DNA of 64,000 nt from Polaribacter sp. Hel1_85 (GTDB lineage Bacteria > Bacteroidota > Bacteroidia > Flavobacteriales > Flavobacteriaceae). The DNA lies in assembly GCF_000766795.1 (NCBI RefSeq), contig NZ_JPDS01000003.1:1-64000 (forward strand). The letters run 5' to 3'. Below the pieces are notes generated by a model. It ran no database searches. It worked only from the letters and a program-made list of their open reading frames with translations, and was not told the origin of the DNA. Below are positions 1,517 to 35,183 of this stretch, one piece after another. The stretch's first letter is position 1, and each line of letters opens with the position of its first letter. Made by a program: the position numbers and the translations under genes.

Positions 1517-3813
<2,297 letters not shown>

Positions 3814-14541: not shown

Positions 14542-15016
14542 ATTCTTTTAATTGTATTCTAATTGGTAACTGATACTTTGTAGTAACAGGAATTCCTCTC
14601 TTATTTGCAGGAAATATTTGAGGTAAATTTTGAACGCTAACTTTTAGCAAACTATCTAATTGAGGCAATTCTTTTTTTATGTTATTTGAAGACTGAATAG
14701 AATCCAAAATAAAAATCCCTTTAGAATTAATTAGCAAATCAACATAAATAATTTCGTCTATTGAATCTTTAATCGTAAATAAATTCTTTTGCAACTCCTC
14801 TCCTATTTTTTGATGAATTGTATTTCTAAAACAATCAGATTTTTTTGTTTTATCAATAATAGAATCACAAGGTTTAAATGAAGGAAAAGTATCTACGGAA
14901 GAGAAATCTACAATAGTATCTAAAACTTGAATATTTTTGTTTTTTGATAAAGAAATTTTATCACACGAAGTGATAAAAAATATAATTAATAAAAAAGAAA
15001 AAATACGTTGAAACAT
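14540..15016 (-). CDS. Lipoprotein with TonB C-terminal-like domain
   Basis: 158 residues. MFQRIFSFLLIIFFITSCDK is a lipoprotein signal with the modified Cys in TSC. The C-terminal half (IIYVDLLINSKGIFILDSIQ ... LPQIFPANKRGIPVTTKYQLPIRIQL) has the beta-alpha-beta pattern of TonB C-terminal domains, and resembles the tails of the two upstream proteins. No TonB box-binding role is implied; stand-alone copies of this domain are common in Bacteroidota. Its start overlaps the upstream gene by about 56 bases in another frame, so it belongs to the same transcript. Confidence 0.6.
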   Translation of the reverse strand: MFQRIFSFLLIIFFITSCDKISLSKNKNIQVLDTIVDFSSVDTFPSFKPCDSIIDKTKKSDCFRNTIHQKIGEELQKNLFTIKDSIDEIIYVDLLINSKGIFILDSIQSSNNIKKELPQLDSLLKVSVQNLPQIFPANKRGIPVTTKYQLPIRIQLKE

Positions 15017-15554
15017 GAAAACCTAATAATAAGTGAAAATAGTAAATTAAAAGATTAGTTTTTGTTTTTTTATCCATTCTTTCTTTTTTCCTTCTCGCTT
15101 TTTTTTGTGATTTTGTTTCTTCTACTAAAATTGTAAAAGGTATTGAATATTTTACAGCAACATTTTCTCCTTTTACTTTACCTGCAATCATTTTAGGTGA
15201 TAAATTCATAACTCTCTTAACCTCCTCTTTTAATTTTGGATGCGGTGCTCTTACAACAACATTCACAACGTCTCCAGAAGCAGTTATTTTAAAACCTATA
15301 AAAACTCTATACTTTCCTTCTTTAAGAAGTAATTGATTAGGTAAATCTGAATCAAAGTTCTCAATAAATAATCTTTGAATACCTTGACTAAAGCAATTTT
15401 TTAAATCTTGTTTACTTCCTTTACACCCAGGATAAACAGGCACCTCATCAATAATCAAAAAAGAAACTTCTTTTTCGGCTTTCTTATCCTGAGAAGAGAC
15501 CGTTAAATTAAAGGACAGAAATACAATTATAAAAAAACAAAACTTTTGCAGCAT
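14961..15554 (-). CDS. Secreted TonB C-terminal-like domain protein
   Basis: 197 residues from the ATG at 15554 (MLQKFCFFIIVFLSF, signal peptide); a TTG nine bases earlier is less likely. Residues about 35-145 are homologous to the tail of the M56 protein upstream: VPVYPGC, SDLPNQL, VRAPHPKLKEEVKRVM and ENVAVKYSIPFTILVEETK are nearly the same in both. After a basic stretch (SQKKARRKKERMDKK) comes a hydrophobic tail of about 35 residues, unlike the family. It reads over the start of the next gene, suggesting that the original stop codon was lost. Function unknown; probably a periplasmic partner of the M56 protein. Confidence 0.65.
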   Translation of the reverse strand: MLQKFCFFIIVFLSFNLTVSSQDKKAEKEVSFLIIDEVPVYPGCKGSKQDLKNCFSQGIQRLFIENFDSDLPNQLLLKEGKYRVFIGFKITASGDVVNVVVRAPHPKLKEEVKRVMNLSPKMIAGKVKGENVAVKYSIPFTILVEETKSQKKARRKKERMDKKTKTNLLIYYFHLLLGFHVSTYFFFFINYIFYHFV

Positions 15555-15657
15555 TTTTAACAAGTTAAATAAATATTATTAATACGTGAAATTACAAAAC
15601 TTTAATGACTTCTGTTCTAAACTTTTTACCTCAAAATACAACTCATTTTTTAGATAT

Positions 15658-26711: not shown

Positions 26712-26886
26712 TTTGGCGTGTTTTTGAAAAAACAAAAACCGCGCTTTTCACTATATCTTTTTATGTTGAATTTAATTCAGCATCTCAATTTTCAAAAAAA
26801 GTATTTAATTATTTTAACAAATTCTAAATCGAGTTAAGCATAAAAAGGATGCCGTTTCAATCGCTCACGCAAGCTTGTTTGCAAAC
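26712..26886 (+). repeat. Dispersed structured repeat, copy C (variant ends)
   Basis: It shares TTTTCACTATATCTTTTT and AAAAAGGATGCCGTTTCAATC with copies B and D, but the outer arms differ. Here GCGTG (26716-26720) pairs with CACGC (26866-26870) and a small GTTTTTG / CAAAAAC hairpin sits inside the left arm. The middle holds a TGAATTTAATTCAGCAT-type stem. Confidence 0.75.
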
Positions 26887-27325: not shown

Positions 27326-29968
27326 TTAATTTACAACCAATTTTATGGCCTTATAATTTCTAAAATCATTTCTAATTTTCACAAAATACATTCCAGGTTT
27401 TAACCCTTCTCTTTGTAAAGAAACTTTGTTGTTTCCAATAGCTGTATTTTCTTCTGTTCTTCTAATTAAAGCTCCTGTTAAATTATAAACTTCAATTTTT
27501 GTATTTGAATTTGTTTCAGCATAAAAACTTAATTCAGAACTTACATGCATCGGATTAGGCATTAAAATAGCCTCATTTTCTGCAATCACTTCATTTCCCA
27601 CACTAAGTACTTGTTGTGTAAACTGAATATCTTTTAAACTCATTTCTTTATTTAAAACCTCTACTCCATCAGAAGACATTGTAAAAACAATATTTACTGC
27701 ATCATTTAAATCTAAATCACCTCCTGCTACTGAAACAAAGTGTGCAAAAGGAATTGCAAAATGACTCTCTGTTTCGTTTAATTTAATAGTAGTTCTGTAT
27801 TGGTTTTCCCAAGCATCAATACTTTCTTTAACAATCGTAATTTCTACATCTCCTGTTCCAAAAGCATCTAACTCTAATACATCATAGTCAGATAAATCTA
27901 TAGCTGTAAATCTTGGAGTAAAAGATCTAAAAGCAGATACATATTCACTGGTAGTTGCTTTTAAAGAAATATTTCTCTCTACTCTATAACCACTTCCCGC
28001 ATAAATATTATCGTTTTGAGTTATAGAAAACTCATTTACTGTTGTTCCTTCTGGCGAATCATCATTACCCCAAACTCCATCAGACATAAATAAATCGTCT
28101 GGTGTTAAATCATATTCATTTTCTATTCTAAAACCAATATCAAAAATGTTTCCTGTTTCAATTACTAAAGATTCTATATAATTACCTGTTAATTCTACAG
28201 TATTATTAAAATACTCTGTATTTGAAGTTTCAGTTCTTTTAAAACCTGCATCAATCACAACGCTTTTAGTTCTTCTAACGTTTATTAATTCTAACTCTAA
28301 AGTTCCATTTACGTATTTTCCTTTTTTAACAAATACAGGTGGTGGAGTAGATGTATTATAGTTTGATACTGGCCTTTGAATATCAAATAAAGCAATTGCC
28401 TCATGACCTAAAGTTAATAAATCATCTACACTATTAGACCAAATTTGAAAATTATAATACGTAGCACCTGCCTCATATTTATCAATATTCCAATGACTAT
28501 CTATTTCAAAATTTTCTTCACTATTAATTAACCTTCCAGAAAAACTTAAAACAAATTCTTTAGTACCATTACTGTTTTTTATGATTGACTTAATAAATTG
28601 TACTCCTTCTACACCTTCGTCTTCTCCTTCTTCTCCAAATAACTCAATTGTAGAAACTGATAATAATTCTGCACCTAATAATCGATCACAAATAAACTTT
28701 GTATGCTCATATACACCATTTTCTGTTTTTGTTGCTAATACAACAGCTATTGTTTCATCATCTTTTACATAATCTACAGAATACAATTCTGTTGCATTTG
28801 TAATAGCAATTAAATCTAATGGAGAAGACTCTACGGCTGTTGCTCCAGAAAGAACATCTAAAGGAATTAAATCTTTTAATTCAAAAGTAGTAGATTTAGA
28901 TTTAGCTAAAGTCTTTTTATAACTTTTAGTCTTAATTACTTTCTTTGCTTTTAATTTATCAAATTTAAAATTAGATTTTTTTCTTAAATAATTTCTTTTA
29001 TTAATCTGTTGAGAAAGACGATCATTACTTTCTAAACCTCCTTCATTACCACTAGAAACCTCTGGAGTTATTACAGGGCAAGCCGCAACACCAGAACAAG
29101 CAGGGTCATCACAATCTACCAATCCATCACCATCATCATCAATTCCATTAATACAATCTTCTTGAGGAACTGGTGCTGTAGGACATCTAGCTCCATCATT
29201 AGAACTACTAGCAGGACCAAAAGCAAAAAGATTAGACTCCATTTCACCTCCAACTTCTAAACCTTGTACATCTTTAATCATATAAACAGTACCTGTTTGA
29301 TTTGCAGACACGTAAAAACGACCAGAAGCATCAAAATAAACGGCTCCAAAATGATAATTTAATCCTGTTAATATTGGCACTTCACCTAAATCTATAATTT
29401 CACTTGTTGTTGCATTTATTCGATATAAATGATTTGTACCTTTTTCTACAGTGTATAAATGTCCATCAACAGAATTAAATGCCCAATCATGAATACTTAA
29501 ATTTAAAGAAAATGTTCCTTGGCTTATAAATTTTGTATAATTTTCAGATTCTGGATTTAAATCAATTGTATAATATTTTGTTCCTGCTCCTTTTAAATAA
29601 TAGATTCCTTCTGAACTAACATCACCAATATAAATACTAGAAGTAGGCAGTTCATCTATATAAAAACTTTCTACATTAAAACTCTTTCCAATTCTTACAA
29701 TTGTTTGAGAACCGTTAGTTAATGCTCCCCAAATGTATCCATCTGCAGGGTTATAACCTACAGCATTAATATTGCCTTCGGTAACATCTTCTTTTACTAA
29801 ATAAGAACTTCCTGAAGCTAAATCTAATGCATAAATATCATTTCTTTGAAATAAATATGCATTATAATCACAATTAAAAGGTTCATTTTGCGCACTCAAA
29901 GAAATGCTTAAAATTAGAGTAAATAAAAATAAAATTCTTGTCGTTGATTTTTGTAAATGTGTTGTCAT
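27326..29968 (-). CDS. Large secreted protein with T9SS type A sorting domain
   Basis: 880 residues. Signal peptide ends near SLSAQN. Residues about 30-260 look like a beta-propeller of the DUF6923/LVIVD kind, with repeats ending in YALD, YTID and YRIN. CINGIDDDGDGLVDCDDPACS (about residues 272-292) is a calcium-type Asp-rich linker. A basic stretch (about 315-350) precedes a beta-rich region and a carbohydrate-binding-like domain near 690-800 (DLSDYDVLELDAFGTGDVEITIVKE). The C-terminus (MPNPMHVSSELSFY ... GLKPGMYFVKI) is a T9SS type A signal, so the protein should be exported and anchored at the cell surface. No catalytic motif recognised; possible adhesin. Confidence 0.8.
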   Translation of the reverse strand: MTTHLQKSTTRILFLFTLILSISLSAQNEPFNCDYNAYLFQRNDIYALDLASGSSYLVKEDVTEGNINAVGYNPADGYIWGALTNGSQTIVRIGKSFNVESFYIDELPTSSIYIGDVSSEGIYYLKGAGTKYYTIDLNPESENYTKFISQGTFSLNLSIHDWAFNSVDGHLYTVEKGTNHLYRINATTSEIIDLGEVPILTGLNYHFGAVYFDASGRFYVSANQTGTVYMIKDVQGLEVGGEMESNLFAFGPASSSNDGARCPTAPVPQEDCINGIDDDGDGLVDCDDPACSGVAACPVITPEVSSGNEGGLESNDRLSQQINKRNYLRKKSNFKFDKLKAKKVIKTKSYKKTLAKSKSTTFELKDLIPLDVLSGATAVESSPLDLIAITNATELYSVDYVKDDETIAVVLATKTENGVYEHTKFICDRLLGAELLSVSTIELFGEEGEDEGVEGVQFIKSIIKNSNGTKEFVLSFSGRLINSEENFEIDSHWNIDKYEAGATYYNFQIWSNSVDDLLTLGHEAIALFDIQRPVSNYNTSTPPPVFVKKGKYVNGTLELELINVRRTKSVVIDAGFKRTETSNTEYFNNTVELTGNYIESLVIETGNIFDIGFRIENEYDLTPDDLFMSDGVWGNDDSPEGTTVNEFSITQNDNIYAGSGYRVERNISLKATTSEYVSAFRSFTPRFTAIDLSDYDVLELDAFGTGDVEITIVKESIDAWENQYRTTIKLNETESHFAIPFAHFVSVAGGDLDLNDAVNIVFTMSSDGVEVLNKEMSLKDIQFTQQVLSVGNEVIAENEAILMPNPMHVSSELSFYAETNSNTKIEVYNLTGALIRRTEENTAIGNNKVSLQREGLKPGMYFVKIRNDFRNYKAIKLVVN

Positions 29969-30092
29969 CTGTGCTATTTTTATGTAAAAGTATTATTATT
30001 TAACCATTAAGAATTACAATTCAAGACAAATAACAATAAAGTATAGACGAATTGTAACTTTAAAATGTTGAGTTAATTTTTCTATAATAAAG

Positions 30093-30125
30093 AAAAAGCC
30101 ACATCTACGTGTAGACATGACTTTT
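30093..30125. terminator. Relic copy of the ftsZ terminator
   Basis: AAAGCCACATCTA-CGTG-TAGACATGACTTT closely matches the hairpin after ftsZ (33225-33254). It lies at the same position relative to the ftsZ-tail relic. Confidence 0.6.
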
Positions 30126-30153
30126 TGGCTTTAGGGGTTACCTCTTAAAATAT

Positions 30154-30365
30154 CTAATCTACATTATCATGTAAAAAAGAATTATTCAATTTTAATTGAA
30201 TATCATCATTTTCGGTATTTAAAGTAGTTTTAGACTTACTCATAGAAGCATTTGTTGCATCTAAATCTACTCCCATTCTCTTATATGCTTGCTAACGTTC
30301 TATTTCATCAATGTTTTTATTCATTTGATATGTGAACTTATAATTGAATCCTTTTATCTTTTGAT
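30154..30365 (-). pseudogene. Relic of the 3' end of ftsZ
   Basis: Reading left, this encodes KIKGFNYKF, QMNKNIDEIER, a TAG stop, QAYKRMGVDLD, a variable stretch and NNSFLHDNVD, then stops. It matches the last ~67 codons of the intact ftsZ (33282 onward), including the conserved C-terminal peptide. The similarity continues through the stop, terminator and about 80 bases beyond (to about 30024; partner to about 33155). Differences are mostly conservative (L/M, I/M, S/T) with a one-codon length change, as between orthologues of related species. The break is upstream of KIKG. 29969-30092 otherwise shows nothing recognisable. Confidence 0.85.
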
Positions 30366-30552
30366 GAAACTATTTTACCTAAAAACTTCTGTTTTTTTTT
30401 ACATTTACAACTTCTTCTTTAAAACTTAATTCCTAAAAAAAAAGATTTAACACTCAAAAAACACACTTTTATCCCTATTATTTGTTATTAAGGTATATCA
30501 TTATTAGTTTTAGCCTTATATTTAATTTCAATTTTAAGTCTTTTAAAGATAA
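30366..30552. other. Spacer between the ftsZ relic and the 30553 fragment
   Basis: AT-rich, no recognisable gene or repeat. ftsZ similarity ends at its left edge. Confidence 0.4.
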
Positions 30553-31074
30553 ATGCAATCATTTTTAAAAATAGCGCTAAATTTTATAATCTTTTTTTTT
30601 CTTTCTATATCTTATAGTCAATCATTAGATTCACTTAAAATAAGTATAACTGATGTTGAGAATAAAAACGATTTTAAAGAGGTTGCATTGTTTTTTAAGG
30701 AAGTAGAAAATCAGAAAACGAATAACAACTTTAAGTTATTAGAAGAACATTTAATACTTGCTCAAAAAAACCTTATTTGGGCAGTAAAAGAAGGAACAAT
30801 TGAAGAACAATTATTAGCGAAGTATTTTATCTTCTTATATTATAATAGTAATAATAATGAAGTTGAAATAATAACAAGAGGTAATGAGCTAATTTCTATA
30901 CCTGAATTCCTTAAACTTCCAGAGTCAATTTTTACACTATTTTGTTTAAAAGCAAGTTTAGAAAGAACAGACCAATTTAATACTCTATTACAAATTCTCC
31001 CATTATATTATAAACATATGGAAGATTATGGCGCCGTTTTTGGAGTAAAGTTAGAACAGTTAGTGAGATTTTAA
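30553..31074 (+). pseudogene. 5' fragment of an exported helical (TPR-like) protein gene
   Basis: 173 codons: signal peptide MQSFLKIALNFIIFFFLSISYSQS, then helical pairs (FKEVALFFKEVENQKTNNN, NFKLLEEHLILAQKNLIWAVKEG, EEQLLAKYFIFLYYN). These recall the sensor part of TPR-containing regulators or histidine kinases. After about codon 160 the frame enters DNA that, in the +1 frame, encodes the end of a LamG-type domain. So the last ~14 residues (AVFGVKLEQLVRF) are foreign and the gene has lost its 3' part. Confidence 0.6.
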
Positions 31075-32777
31075 CAAATAAAGATGTTGAAGTATCAAAT
31101 ACTGAAACCGATTTATTGGCATATTATCAATTTAATCAAGGTGCAGACGCTGCAAATAACTCAAGTGTTACAACGTTAACAGATAATAGTGTTAACAATT
31201 ACACCGGAACACTCATCAATTTTGCTTTAACGGGTGCAACTTCTAATTGGCGTTCTTCAAATACTTGGACAGGAGCAACTGATACAAACTGGGCAAATGC
31301 AAGTAACTGGAGTTTTAATACTATACCATTCGCTTATACTAATTTAGTAATACCAAATGTAACTAATAAGCCAGTTGTTAGTTCAAGCACAGGAGCTGTT
31401 GCAAATGATATTACAATAGACGCTTCTTCTTCTGTAACTGTAGAAAGTGGAGGTTCTTTAATTATTGAAGGAACTGCTACTGTAAATGGAGATTTTAATT
31501 ATAATGTAAATGTTGCAGATGATAAATGGCATTTAGTTTCTTCTCCTGTTGTAGGAGAACAATATGGTGATATTTGGAACACTGCAAACAGTATTGATCA
31601 CAATCTACCAAATGAAGCAGTAGCTCGTTATATAAATACAAGTGATACAGATGGTGATTGGATCTATTTTCAAGATTCGGGTTCATCAACTACGTTTGGT
31701 TCTGGTTCTGGATATTCATTAAAAAGAACTGCTGCTGGTAATTATACCTTTACAGGTACTTTTCCTGCACCGCCTGTTAATCCAACAATTACTGCAAATG
31801 ACATTGGTGGAGGTGCTGAAAACAGATGGAATTCTGTGGGTAATCCTTTTCCTGCACATATTAACATTGCTACTTTTTTAGCTGATAACACAACTCCATT
31901 AACAGATACACACGAAGCTGTTTATGTTTGGAATGCTACTGCAGATGAATATCAAGATTTAACAACTGGTCAAATTCATCCTGGTCAAGCATTTTTTGTT
32001 AGTTCTAATGTAGCTTCTACTTCCGTAACTTTTACTAAAGCAATGCAAAGTGACCAAAATGGAGTTACTTTTTACAGAACTACATCAAACCCAAAATTAA
32101 CCTTATTAATGGCTGATGATACCAAAACAAAATCTACAGAAATTAATTATTTAGAAGGTAAAACTACCAGTTTAGATCCTGGTTTTGATATTGGTACCTT
32201 TACAGGTCAATCATCTAGCTTAAATATTTATACTCATTTAGTTAGCAATAGTGAGGGTGTAGATTTTAAAAGACAAGCATTACCAGATACTAATTTCGAA
32301 AACATGATTATACCTGTTGGTGTTTCTGTTACAGCTGATAAAGAAATTACTTTTACTGCAGAAGGCTTAAATTTACCATCGGGCATTAAAATTTTTTTAG
32401 AAGATAGAATCACAAATACATTTACGCGTTTAGATGAAGCCAATAGTAATTATAAAATTATTCCATCTGAAAATTTAAACGGAATTGGCAGATTCTATTT
32501 ACATACAACCAACAGTGCACTAAGTGTTGATAATAATGTAGCTTTAGAGAATGTTAGTATTTATAAATTAGACAAATCTACTTTAAGAATTGTTGGTTTA
32601 TCACAAGAAAAAACAACAGTTTCTATATTTAATTTATTAGGAAAACAAGTGTTAAATACTTCTTTTACTTCTAATGGTGTTAAAAATATTGATTTACCAA
32701 ACCTATCTAAAGGTGTTTATCTGGTTCAACTAAAAACCAATTCTGGCAAGTTGAACAAAAAAATAATTTTAGAATAA
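31032..32777 (+). pseudogene. 5'-truncated T9SS protein gene (LamG remnant to sorting domain)
   Basis: The frame can be followed upstream of the nominal start (TTG at 31116) to a stop at 31011. It reads FWSKVRTVSEI, then DLLAYYQFNQG, the normal end of a concanavalin/LamG domain. The signal peptide and most of that domain are missing. Then come a beta-helix-like stretch (NWANASNWSFNTIPFAYTN ... GGSLIIEGTATVNGDF), a large surface domain (WHLVSSPVVGEQYGD ... NRWNSVGNPFPAHIN) and a complete T9SS type A tail (VSIFNLLGKQVLN ... GVYLVQLKTNSGK). Without signal peptide it should not be exported. Confidence 0.75.
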
Positions 32778-32802
32778 TCTAACTTTTAAAAGACAAAACA
32801 TC

Positions 32803-32970
32803 ATGAAAAAAAATATAGAAAACAAACAAGACATCACAAGAAAAGAAGCAATTAAAAAAATAGGAAATTACGGTAAATATGCAGCTTTAACTGCATTGGG
32901 AACTTACCTAATTTTAAATCCGCAAAAAGCTCAGGCTTCAAGTCCTGAAGCGCCGGGAGAAGGGTTCTAA
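32803..32970 (+). CDS. Small exported peptide (55 residues)
   Basis: It starts 25 bases after the T9SS gene. MKKNIENKQDITRKEAIKKIG is a basic N-terminal part, then a hydrophobic stretch (YAALTALGTYLILNP) ending in the cleavage-like QKAQA, and a short mature tail SSPEAPGEGF. I believe similar peptides follow surface-protein genes in other Flavobacteriaceae, but cannot verify it here. The long basic lead before the hydrophobic core is unusual for a Sec signal and has no RR pair for Tat. Function unknown. Confidence 0.6.
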   Translation: MKKNIENKQDITRKEAIKKIGNYGKYAALTALGTYLILNPQKAQASSPEAPGEGF

Positions 32971-33000
32971 TAATCAAGCTTAATTTTATAGTATTCATAA

Positions 33001-33033
33001 AAAAATCACATCTATATCTAGATGTGATTTTTT
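33001..33033 (+). terminator. Terminator after the small peptide gene
   Basis: AAAAATCACATCTA / TAGATGTGATTTTT with loop TATC, perfect stem. The stem sequence and the following AAGGGGTAA resemble the ftsZ terminator region. Confidence 0.85.
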
Positions 33034-33224
33034 GGTAATCAAGGGGTAAGCATACGTAAAGGGTAATGTTTTTCTATTATCTTATTATCGTTATAAATAC
33101 TTTTCTAACTTACTATAAAGATATTATTACTTACTCTAAATAAATAAACTATTAGACAAACAAGCAAAAACAATAGACGAACTGTTACAGTTAAGTCGTT
33201 AACTTACATTTTATTAACAAAAAA

Positions 33225-33254
33225 AAGCCACATCTACGTATAGACATGGCTTTA
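33225..33254 (-). terminator. Terminator of ftsZ
   Basis: AAAGCCACATCTA / TAGACATGGCTTT with loop CGTA and two internal mismatches, followed on the minus strand by a T-run. It closes the mraZ-ftsZ cluster. Confidence 0.7.
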
Positions 33255-33281
33255 TGACCTTAGGGGTTACCTCTTAAATAT

Positions 33282-35183
33282 CTAATCTACATTATCATGT
33301 AAAAAAGAATTATTTGATTTTAAACTGATTTCGTCAGTATCTTTTTTAATCGATGTTTTTGTATTACTAATAGAAGTATTTGTATCTAAATCTACTCCAA
33401 GTCTTTTATATGCTGGTTGACGCTCAATTTCATCAATATTCTTGTTCATTTGATCGTTGAACTTATAATTGAAACCTTTCATCTTTTTTCTTCTCTCTTC
33501 TGCTCTTTTTTGTAACTCAGTAATTGTTAAATCTAAAGGAGAAACTTCTTCACTTTGTGTTTCAATTTTATTAATCTCTACTTGTGGAGTTCTAGTCTTT
33601 AATTCAAACTGAACTTCTTCTTCTTCTTCAACTTTCTCTTCAACAAAAGCAGAACTTTTACCAATAGTTGGTTGTGCATCAAACTCTTCTAAAACATAAC
33701 GTTTTTCAACCTCTTTTCTCTCAAAAACAATTTCTTCAGTGCCTAAAACTTCAATCTCATTAACATTTACTTTTGGCTCTTCTTGCAAACTAAAACGAAT
33801 TTCTTCCTCTTCTTTTACTTCTGTATAAGAATTTAAAGGTAAATCAAACAATAAATCTGCTTGTATTTGCTTAGGTTCTTCAACAACTTTCTCTTCTTGA
33901 ACTGGTGTTGCATCTGTAATTACAAAATCATCCTCAGAAACAGTTTCTATTTGAACCTCTTCAAAAAGAACAGACATATTAGCAATTTCATTGGTAGTTT
34001 TTACCAAGTTTGCTTTAGGAGTAACTACTTCTACTTCATCTTCTAGTGTGTGTACAATTTTCTCCTCAACTTTATTTGTTAACGGCTCATCTAACGTTGG
34101 TGATTTTGTGATTTTTTTCTCACTAAAATCATAAGTCGCTTTTTGTTCATCTTCTAAAGTATGTACAATCTTCTTAACTTCTGTATTGGTAATTGTACTT
34201 TGTTGATCTGCTGCAAAACCTGTAGCCACAATAGTTACAGCAATAGCATCACCTAAATCTTCATCTTCTCCAATTCCCATAATGATGTTTGCATCATAAC
34301 CTGCCTCATCTTGTATATAGTCATTAATTTCTCCAATTTCATCTAATGTAACTTCATTAGTACCAGATACAATTAATAACAATACATTTTTAGCTCCAGT
34401 AATTTTGTTATCATTTAACAAAGGAGAGTCTAATGCTTTTACAATAGCATTTTTAGCTCTAGTTTGTCCTTCTTCTTTTGCAGAACCCATAATTGCTGTT
34501 CCACTATTAGAAAGTACAGTTTTGGCATCGTGTAAATCAATATTTTGCTTATAGTGATGTGTAATAACCTCTGCAATTCCTCGAGAAGCAGTAGATAAAA
34601 CTTCATCTGCTTTAGAAAAACCAGCTTTAAAACCAAGGTTTCCATAAACTTCACGTAATTTATTATTATTAATTACAATTAAAGAATCTACATTTTGGCG
34701 CAGTTGGTCGATTCCTATTTGTGCTTGTTTTGATCGTCTTCTACCTTCAAAAGCAAAAGGCATTGTAACAATACCCACAGTTAGGATATCCATATCTTTT
34801 GCAATTTTTGCAATTATTGGTGCTGCTCCTGTACCAGTTCCACCACCCATTCCTGCAGTTATAAATACCATTTTTGTTTGGGTATTTAACATTTGCTGAA
34901 TTTCTTGCATGCTTTCTTTAGCTGCTTGTGCACCAACTTCTGGATTTGCACCAGCACCTAAACCAGATGTTAAGTTTGCTCCTAATTGAATTTTATTAGG
35001 AACAGGACTGTTTTCTAAAGCTTGTGAATCTGTATTACAAATTACAAAGTCTACTCCTTTAATGTGTTGCGTAAACATGTGGTTTACTGCGTTGCTTCCT
35101 CCACCACCTACACCAATTACTTTAATGGTGTTAGATTGTGTTTTTGGCATGTCAAATGAAATGTTATCGAATTCTGCGCTCAT
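33282..35183 (-). CDS. ftsZ: Cell division protein FtsZ
   Basis: Tubulin-like GTPase forming the Z-ring. 633 residues: GTPase core (about 15-330) with IGVGGGGSNAVN, tubulin signature GGGTGTG, NNNKLREVYGN and the T7 region NTDSQ/ADEVLS. Then comes a very long acidic linker (about 330-560) rich in Glu/Val repeats (EEKVVEEPKQ, KVEEEEEVQFEL). It ends with a basic helix and the conserved tail GFNYKFNDQMNKNIDEIERQ ... SFLHDNVD, presumed to bind FtsA. Long linkers are usual in Bacteroidota. Last gene of the cluster. Confidence 0.97.
   Translation of the reverse strand: MSAEFDNISFDMPKTQSNTIKVIGVGGGGSNAVNHMFTQHIKGVDFVICNTDSQALENSPVPNKIQLGANLTSGLGAGANPEVGAQAAKESMQEIQQMLNTQTKMVFITAGMGGGTGTGAAPIIAKIAKDMDILTVGIVTMPFAFEGRRRSKQAQIGIDQLRQNVDSLIVINNNKLREVYGNLGFKAGFSKADEVLSTASRGIAEVITHHYKQNIDLHDAKTVLSNSGTAIMGSAKEEGQTRAKNAIVKALDSPLLNDNKITGAKNVLLLIVSGTNEVTLDEIGEINDYIQDEAGYDANIIMGIGEDEDLGDAIAVTIVATGFAADQQSTITNTEVKKIVHTLEDEQKATYDFSEKKITKSPTLDEPLTNKVEEKIVHTLEDEVEVVTPKANLVKTTNEIANMSVLFEEVQIETVSEDDFVITDATPVQEEKVVEEPKQIQADLLFDLPLNSYTEVKEEEEIRFSLQEEPKVNVNEIEVLGTEEIVFERKEVEKRYVLEEFDAQPTIGKSSAFVEEKVEEEEEVQFELKTRTPQVEINKIETQSEEVSPLDLTITELQKRAEERRKKMKGFNYKFNDQMNKNIDEIERQPAYKRLGVDLDTNTSISNTKTSIKKDTDEISLKSNNSFLHDNVD

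Follow-up and report, generated by a model that had tools for sequence, protein, structure and literature searches.

The cell-division gene ftsZ of Polaribacter sp. Hel1_85 is accompanied by a second, broken ftsZ 3′ end with its flank, which lies 3.1 kb from the intact tail on the same (minus) strand and whose sequence supports descent from another ftsZ lineage. The window, which is the whole stretch analyzed here, comprises bases 1–64000 of contig C3 in a genome of 3.9 Mb in 4 contigs. Between the two tails lie the remnants of an accessory module for a surface protein of the type IX secretion system (T9SS). The best explanation, which we hold with about even confidence, is the single-crossover integration of a circularized foreign DNA that would have carried an ftsZ 3′ piece together with the accessory module, which later decayed. 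Events of this type are known; the gene affected is unusual. The locus can be read as a fossil, in which an accessory surface-protein module would have entered beside an essential cell-division gene without a recombinase, via the 3′ end of the gene itself, leaving a foreign tail.

A Second ftsZ 3′ End

33282–35183, minus strand: intact ftsZ, 633 amino acids (aa), with Pfam Tubulin and FtsZ_C
30154–30366, minus strand: relic ftsZ tail, with one in-frame TAG followed by the normal stop

An FtsZ search matches the relic at 30157–30366 of the minus strand over residues 565–633 (70% identity, one TAG, E 3.3e-23). At the DNA level, bases 4–342 of the 342 in the relic query align with the genome's own intact tail at 80% identity, with an E value (5.4e-78) that rules out chance similarity. 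Direct repeats connect the two copies at 30255–30362/33380–33487 (84%), 30148–30255/33276–33383 (79%) and 30080–30149/33209–33278 (86%), with spacings in the locus of 3125–3129, and the repeat pair extends beyond the stop, taking in a terminator-like hairpin, as far as about 30024/33155. The claim of an earlier note on this DNA, that 30024–30365 is a diverged second copy of the ftsZ 3′ end and flank at 33155–33490, is thereby borne out, as are its observations of an in-frame TAG (seen in the FtsZ search), of a one-codon length difference between the tails (seen in the alignments) and of a terminator in both copies (hairpins at 30126–30093 on the relic side and 33253–33224 on the intact side).

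Identity between the copies, in windows of 60 columns, is 73, 80, and 65% in the coding part, 95% at the stop and 80% at the hairpin, and falls to 62% and 49% beyond it. The edge of the relic at 30366 is abrupt, both in the end of the FtsZ match and in the alignment; placing the opposite junction needs the donor. The insert is bounded by direct repeats of its target, one of which is truncated, as in a Campbell-type product.

The closest match of the intact tail and its flank is the genome G062, the closest relative by FtsZ (87% over query bases 3–283 in the DNA search). With up to seven candidates scored per genome, the 159 other genomes that have an FtsZ match yielded no second FtsZ tail. Two FtsZ matches occur in seven genomes, namely this one and six others. 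Those in G044, G071, G109, G131, and G135 represent one gene that is split over contigs or interrupted, and that in G158 is an extra N-terminal piece (residues 1–221) on another contig; none of the six is a second tail. Some genomes give two or three matches in the tail-DNA search, and the best match per genome is the basis of the identities reported here. When the relic protein is compared with the fetched ftsZ regions, it matches only each gene's own tail.

Ancestry of the Relic Tail

Besides the relic and the intact tail, the tail tree comprises 54 genomes out of the 160 in which FtsZ was matched (the nearest matches plus G050 and G130), over 213 columns; G121 was omitted for a tail match that is too short. 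In this tree, whose bootstrap had not settled, the intact tail is placed close to G062 and G052 in a group of 21 rows, itself part of a 35-row clade (support 97/94) that does not contain the relic. Placing relic and intact tail as sisters costs 32.7 log units and is rejected by the approximately unbiased (AU) test (p-AU 0.0013), and a grouping of the relic with G062, G109, G135, G052, and the intact tail is also rejected (p-AU 0.0019). Because both groupings are rejected, the relic is a copy neither of the present tail nor of its close relatives, and the tree supports its derivation from another ftsZ lineage. The view that the relic is the tail of another lineage's ftsZ and not a decayed recent duplicate is thus supported, and the tree of both tails with relatives that had been suggested as a check finds that the copies are not each other's closest relatives.

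The best outside DNA matches of the relic are G073 (83%), G125 (82%), and G123 (81%), which are other lineages of the genus. The block SKSKTTL.TENDDIQL is common to the relic and G073, and a close form of it, with the extra codon at the same place as in the relic, occurs in G125, G158, and G082; the extra codon is missing in G073. The branch of the relic may lie with the G073/G125 lineages or immediately outside the native clade.

The relic and the intact tail differ at 37 bases, 24 of them third positions, and the ratio of nonsynonymous to synonymous divergence (dN/dS) for this pair is 0.24. For the relic against other tails the ratio is 0.10 (G062), 0.12 (G123), 0.13 (G073), 0.17 (G125), and 0.26 (G021), compared with 0.04–0.12 across seven pairs of living tails. 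The sequence of the relic was long under selection and ordinary divergence dominates in it, likely with some decay on top.

Flanks, Empty Sites and a Scar in the Closest Relative

33155–33281, minus strand: flank copy 1, with the ftsZ terminator hairpin and, in decayed form, a copy of the region upstream of the T9SS gene
32981–33154, no strand: extra spacer with a second hairpin (33000–33033, inverted self-match), common to the G062 spacer by alignment
29969–30153, minus strand: flank copy 2, with its hairpin and the T9SS-gene upstream region; the ancestral ftsZ–T9SS spacer, 185 bp
27326–29968, minus strand: gene for a DUF6923/T9SS surface protein of 880 aa, the old downstream neighbor of ftsZ

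Spacers were compared in 36 genomes with a complete ftsZ tail and downstream DNA. An orthologue of the T9SS gene lies within 3 kb behind ftsZ in 15 of them, and the insert is absent in all 15, which gives the empty site expected for a Campbell-type product. The gene order downstream of ftsZ, which the earlier note had proposed to compare, is therefore not common to all relatives in the arrangement seen here, and G062 retains a scar. The ftsZ–T9SS spacer measures about 165–189 bp in 14 of the 15 relatives and about 400 bp in G062, as judged from alignment starts. In G062 it consists of two flank units, of which the first aligns with the intact-tail flank through the second hairpin to about 32981, and the second with the relic flank. 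When the relic flank is used as a query, two separate matches are obtained in G062 alone of the 36 genomes.

Shuffled sequences provide a measure of these similarities. The relic-side flank scores above all 100 shuffles against the spacers of 8/8 relatives, and against the distal (second) G062 unit no shuffle of 300 is as high (z 9.9). The distal part of flank copy 1 (33205–33155) exceeds 300/300 shuffles against the relic-side flank (z 5.6). The segment 33154–32971 against G062 gives 0/300 (z 6.5), and its hairpin part alone also 0/300 (z 4.9). Weaker results are obtained for 33208–33070 against the first G062 unit (3/300 shuffles as high) and for the intact flank against the second (1/300). 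Since the ftsZ-side flank continues to resemble that of G062 beyond 33155 to about 32981, position 33155 is the end of the match between the copies and not the start of foreign DNA. The duplication event probably predates the split from G062, because G062 keeps a scar with both flank units.

The Collapsed Module Between the Tails

30367–30552, no strand: DNA between relic and kinase fragment; the sharp 5′ edge of the relic, where the FtsZ match stops, is read as a foreign junction
30553–31074, plus strand: 5′ fragment of a TPR-type histidine kinase gene, 173 codons and then a tail of another frame
31035–32777, plus strand: 3′ part of a LamG/T9SS surface-protein gene with Por_Secre_tail; its start is set by eye from likeness to a protein encoded on contig C1
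31340–32974, plus strand: tract 95% identical, in a patchy manner, to C2:364928–366562 of the same genome, ending 4 bases past the peptide stop codon
32803–32970, plus strand: intact gene for a 55-aa peptide of a multicopy family

The insert contains the 173-codon 5′ end of the kinase gene, a T9SS-protein 3′ end that is open for at least 568 codons and the intact 55-codon gene, in agreement with the earlier description of this segment as fragments plus one small peptide gene. The kinase fragment shows 30–31% identity to kinases in G150 and G359, each of which is followed by a LytTR response regulator and then by a large protein with a T9SS tail domain; HisKA_2 is detected by Pfam in the G150 kinase and by motif only in that of G359. 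Pfam gives nothing above the cut-off for the fragment itself, and it has only distant relatives, which were detected in 2 of the 165 further genomes of the genus and in 3 of the 396 others in the family sample. A kinase on C1 of the same genome has the same architecture, yet is not detectably related to the fragment.

The C1 relative of the LamG/T9SS gene is complete, with Laminin_G_3, and belongs to a four-gene run: kinase, regulator, LamG/T9SS protein, peptide gene. The kinase–regulator–T9SS order is found at C1, in G150 and in G359, and the fourth gene was read at C1 only. In the insert, the kinase fragment is joined out of frame to the LamG/T9SS 3′ end near 31035 (by eye). Because of this fusion and the four-gene order of the complete C1 relative, a four-gene module probably collapsed here by internal deletion. 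The loci L138, L151, and L153 carry a kinase, a LytTR regulator and a large T9SS-type protein, a recurring three-gene order.

Inner 60-base bins of the tract shared with C2 range from 70% to 100% identity, and in seven relatives the C2 stretch finds nothing closer than 75%. The difference between this value and the 95% within the genome points to recent ectopic conversion or copying between unlinked T9SS 3′ ends.

No recombinase gene, as an integrase-borne genomic island would have, was seen in the insert by open reading frames (ORFs) or by Pfam and NCBIfam scans. No tRNA was found in the window; the insert DNA matches no phage, and the 55-aa peptide matches no plasmid.

Origin of the Locus

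Single-crossover integration fits the direct repeats, the headless far copy, the native-like near copy and the lack of any recombinase, tRNA, phage or plasmid sign. A foreign fragment from another lineage of the genus, with an ftsZ 3′ piece and genes for a histidine kinase, a response regulator, a LamG/T9SS protein and the 55-aa peptide, would have circularized and then integrated through one homologous crossover close to the stop codon of ftsZ. The result would have been a complete ftsZ, followed by the module and, beyond it, a headless copy of the tail. With a crossover near the stop, the intact gene would keep its native coding tail, and the relic would combine a foreign coding part with the native flank of the T9SS gene. 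Afterwards the module would have collapsed and a stop would have arisen in the relic; the G062 lineage would have lost both the module and the relic tail, with the switch point within an arm of the hairpin.

Gene-by-gene best matches, in which genomes differ in the genes they contribute, bear on the direction of the exchange. The variable part of ftsZ (83.3 and 86.3), ftsA (90.0), ftsQ (87.4), and murC (88.4, with murC values from only 4 genomes) all have their best match in G062, and the data for this reason lean to the foreign DNA having brought the relic rather than the present tail. The proposal that foreign DNA with an ftsZ tail and downstream genes recombined here thus stands as to the foreign ancestry of the relic, while the accompanying idea that the old tail was left behind is the less favored direction. 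To the left of the insert, G062 is also best for desat (89.8) and tm71 (84.3, tied with G118). The best match is G097 for the first 330 codons of ftsZ (92.3), G116 for aspC (92.0), G006 for rsmG (88.2), G053 for the middle (85.6) and C-terminal (85.3) parts of the T9SS gene, and G145 for its N-terminal part (81.8). The ftsZ locus thus appears to have recombined more than once.

Several results weigh against integration of a circle bearing the relic. The two tails, the separate ancestry of the relic, the flanks, the empty sites, the G062 scar and the module remnants are observed; circularization, the crossover point and the order of events are inferred, the circle without a donor. A donor that joins the module to an ftsZ piece was not seen among the 166 genomes of the genus and 397 of the family searched with the kinase fragment; G023 has a related kinase and regulator without a T9SS gene, and G073 and G125 have no T9SS gene behind ftsZ. 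The relic is short and the bootstrap of its tree not settled. A constraint that puts the relic in the native group of 21 rows gives a borderline value (p-AU 0.0655), and placing it with the 35-row native clade, just outside which it may branch, is not rejected (p-AU 0.342), which also bears on its standing as the newcomer. Groupings of the relic with G073 (p 0.326), with G125 (p 0.103) and with the G125 clade (p 0.338) each lower the likelihood and are likewise not rejected, and therefore no donor can be named. The relic flank against the first G062 unit gives 16/300 shuffles as high, which is not significant alone. Synonymous divergence (dS) is 0.61 between relic and intact tail versus 1.46 between relic and G062, and sites common to the two tails but not G062 number 32 versus 18 the other way (p 0.065). 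These values, of which the site counts are not significant, suggest a later exchange between the two tails that would have blurred the crossover point. The coding part of the relic is foreign-like and its flank native-like, and the site counts do not settle the switch within such a donor/native hybrid. Finally, in a mosaic locus, later recombination could mimic the pattern.

A close rival, although a doubtful one, is one-sided (homology-facilitated illegitimate) recombination or tip displacement, in which a linear foreign piece pairs with the ftsZ or the T9SS side and is joined without homology at 30366; in its displacement form the relic would be the recipient's old tail and the present tail the newcomer. 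The abrupt edge at 30366 and the shift of the best match from gene to gene left of the insert (aspC, rsmG, and the middle and N-terminal parts of the T9SS gene) agree with it, and excerpted reports provide precedents in displaced silent 3′ ends of rhs genes (PMC2935791) and in a mechanism proposed for Vibrio type VI secretion system (T6SS) arrays (PMC5361080). It is opposed by the G062 affinity of the variable ftsZ part, ftsA, ftsQ, and murC, and by that of desat and tm71, which argues against a purely foreign left side; the module would also need a separate origin unless carried in the same piece. Another scenario, an early tandem duplication in an ancestral genome with later replacement of the main ftsZ by allelic recombination while the relic retained the old sequence, is improbable: the mosaic neighborhood of ftsZ in the genus and the two tandem flank units of G062, which lack a second tail, are in its favor, but it needs two events plus insertion of the module exactly between the copies.

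Direct repeats in the same orientation would also result if the ftsZ tail had simply been duplicated in place and had then decayed, and of the first flanks that follow a stop, the genome's own pair shows the greatest similarity (71.8%), but the rejected sisterhood of the tails and the concentration of differences at third positions make such a local duplication quite improbable. Gene 3′ ends are common integration targets, and the flanks resemble left and right target copies, as a mobile genetic element (an integrative element, transposon, phage or plasmid) targeting the ftsZ 3′ end would leave them. The earlier suggestion that an element integrated and restored the gene fits in its geometry only; the missing recombinase, tRNA, phage and plasmid signs and the failure to find a second FtsZ tail in any of the 159 other genomes leave a mobile element very improbable.

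Single-crossover integration has parallels in described systems, as far as the excerpted text of the reports goes. In Escherichia coli conjugation, 14 sequenced recombinants have a 109–950 bp duplication of a homologous gene end, read as single crossovers of circular molecules (PMC3240628). That integration of circular or recircularized DNA likewise gives a duplicated, truncated gene end beside foreign DNA without a recombinase, whereas the ftsZ locus is natural and old, involves diverged lineages and has a second tail of different ancestry. In rhs C-terminal tip displacement, for which a circular intermediate has been proposed, a gene 3′ end also lies silent downstream with foreign DNA between, but rhs tips are repeatedly exchanged and form arrays, whereas here one housekeeping gene is involved and there is no array (PMC2935791). 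T6SS effector–immunity arrays, for which homology-facilitated illegitimate recombination has been proposed, share the homology anchor on one side and the non-homologous end on the other; they keep their displaced immunity genes, whereas the relic is broken (PMC5361080). Merodiploids in pneumococcus transformation also tie a partial duplication to DNA uptake, but are tandem duplications of about 100–900 kb formed by unequal crossing-over at repeats (PMC3784515). Among the top matches in the open-access literature, no title or abstract concerns an ftsZ-tail relic or the 55-aa peptide, which does not imply absence from print.

Headless Tails in the Neighborhood

The window and 37 fetched ftsZ regions were screened for C-terminal-only second copies (358 ORFs of at least 150 aa). 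Such copies of core genes were found for three genes, namely ftsZ (here), rsmG (G010 and G076) and aspC (G125); no start-only copy of a core gene was flagged among the 358 ORFs, and the other flags were paralogous genes only. The second rsmG tails comprise 46 codons in G010 (L061:11645–11785) and 49 codons in G076 (L128:11078–11227), about 1.2 kb behind the full gene with a reverse-direction ORF between, and their DNA is 93% and 97% identical to the full gene, respectively. As the two tails are 96% alike, the event is probably common to both genomes. The aspC tail in G125 (L122:5214–5396, residues 336–395, 52%) lies beside a second copy of the small tm71 gene. Two candidates appear to be ordinary paralogues: the BlaR1-like gene tail in the window (15479–15111), which is in its own complete ORF (14961–15563), and lipoprotein copies in G110.

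Since the rsmG and aspC tails occur in the same neighborhood in relatives, headless core-gene tails are a recurring pattern here, whatever the origin of those two, foreign or not. They suggest that a systematic search for such marks could chart imports of this type. With ftsZ, rsmG, and aspC all bearing headless tails within some 12 kb, it is tentatively proposed that core-gene 3′ ends serve in this genus as habitual recombinase-free landing pads, in which a gene would lend its tail as homology and stay whole while a headless tail is deposited. If so, headless tails could be counted genome-wide as the footprint of integrase-free import.

The cargo of the ftsZ–aspC slot differs by species (L056, L057, L126, L129, L132, L133; names by eye) and includes secreted proteins, T9SS–peptide units, a transposase-like gene and a beta-barrel-like gene. 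A Flavo-1 RNA at 26733–26879 of the minus strand, just over the gathering score, is the sole Rfam match in 20000–45000 and lies outside the insert.

The 55-aa Peptide Family

The 55-aa product has no match in Pfam or NCBIfam. Its sequence shows an R-K motif, an AxA site and a hydrophobic stretch, which suggest that it is an exported short peptide. Family matches occur in 147 of 166 genomes of the genus (this one included), a single genome having as many as 17; across 395 genomes sampled from the order, matches (E at most 1e-4) are confined to 11, six of the genus and five outside it. At 26 of the 27 distinct loci read (32 rows, five of which repeat a gene seen in another locus), the peptide gene starts 15–42 bases past the stop of an ORF that ends like T9SS cargo; the remaining locus abuts masked N. 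The family may represent an undescribed exported companion of T9SS cargo, and the insert thus points to a small-protein partner of these proteins that is unnamed in both databases.

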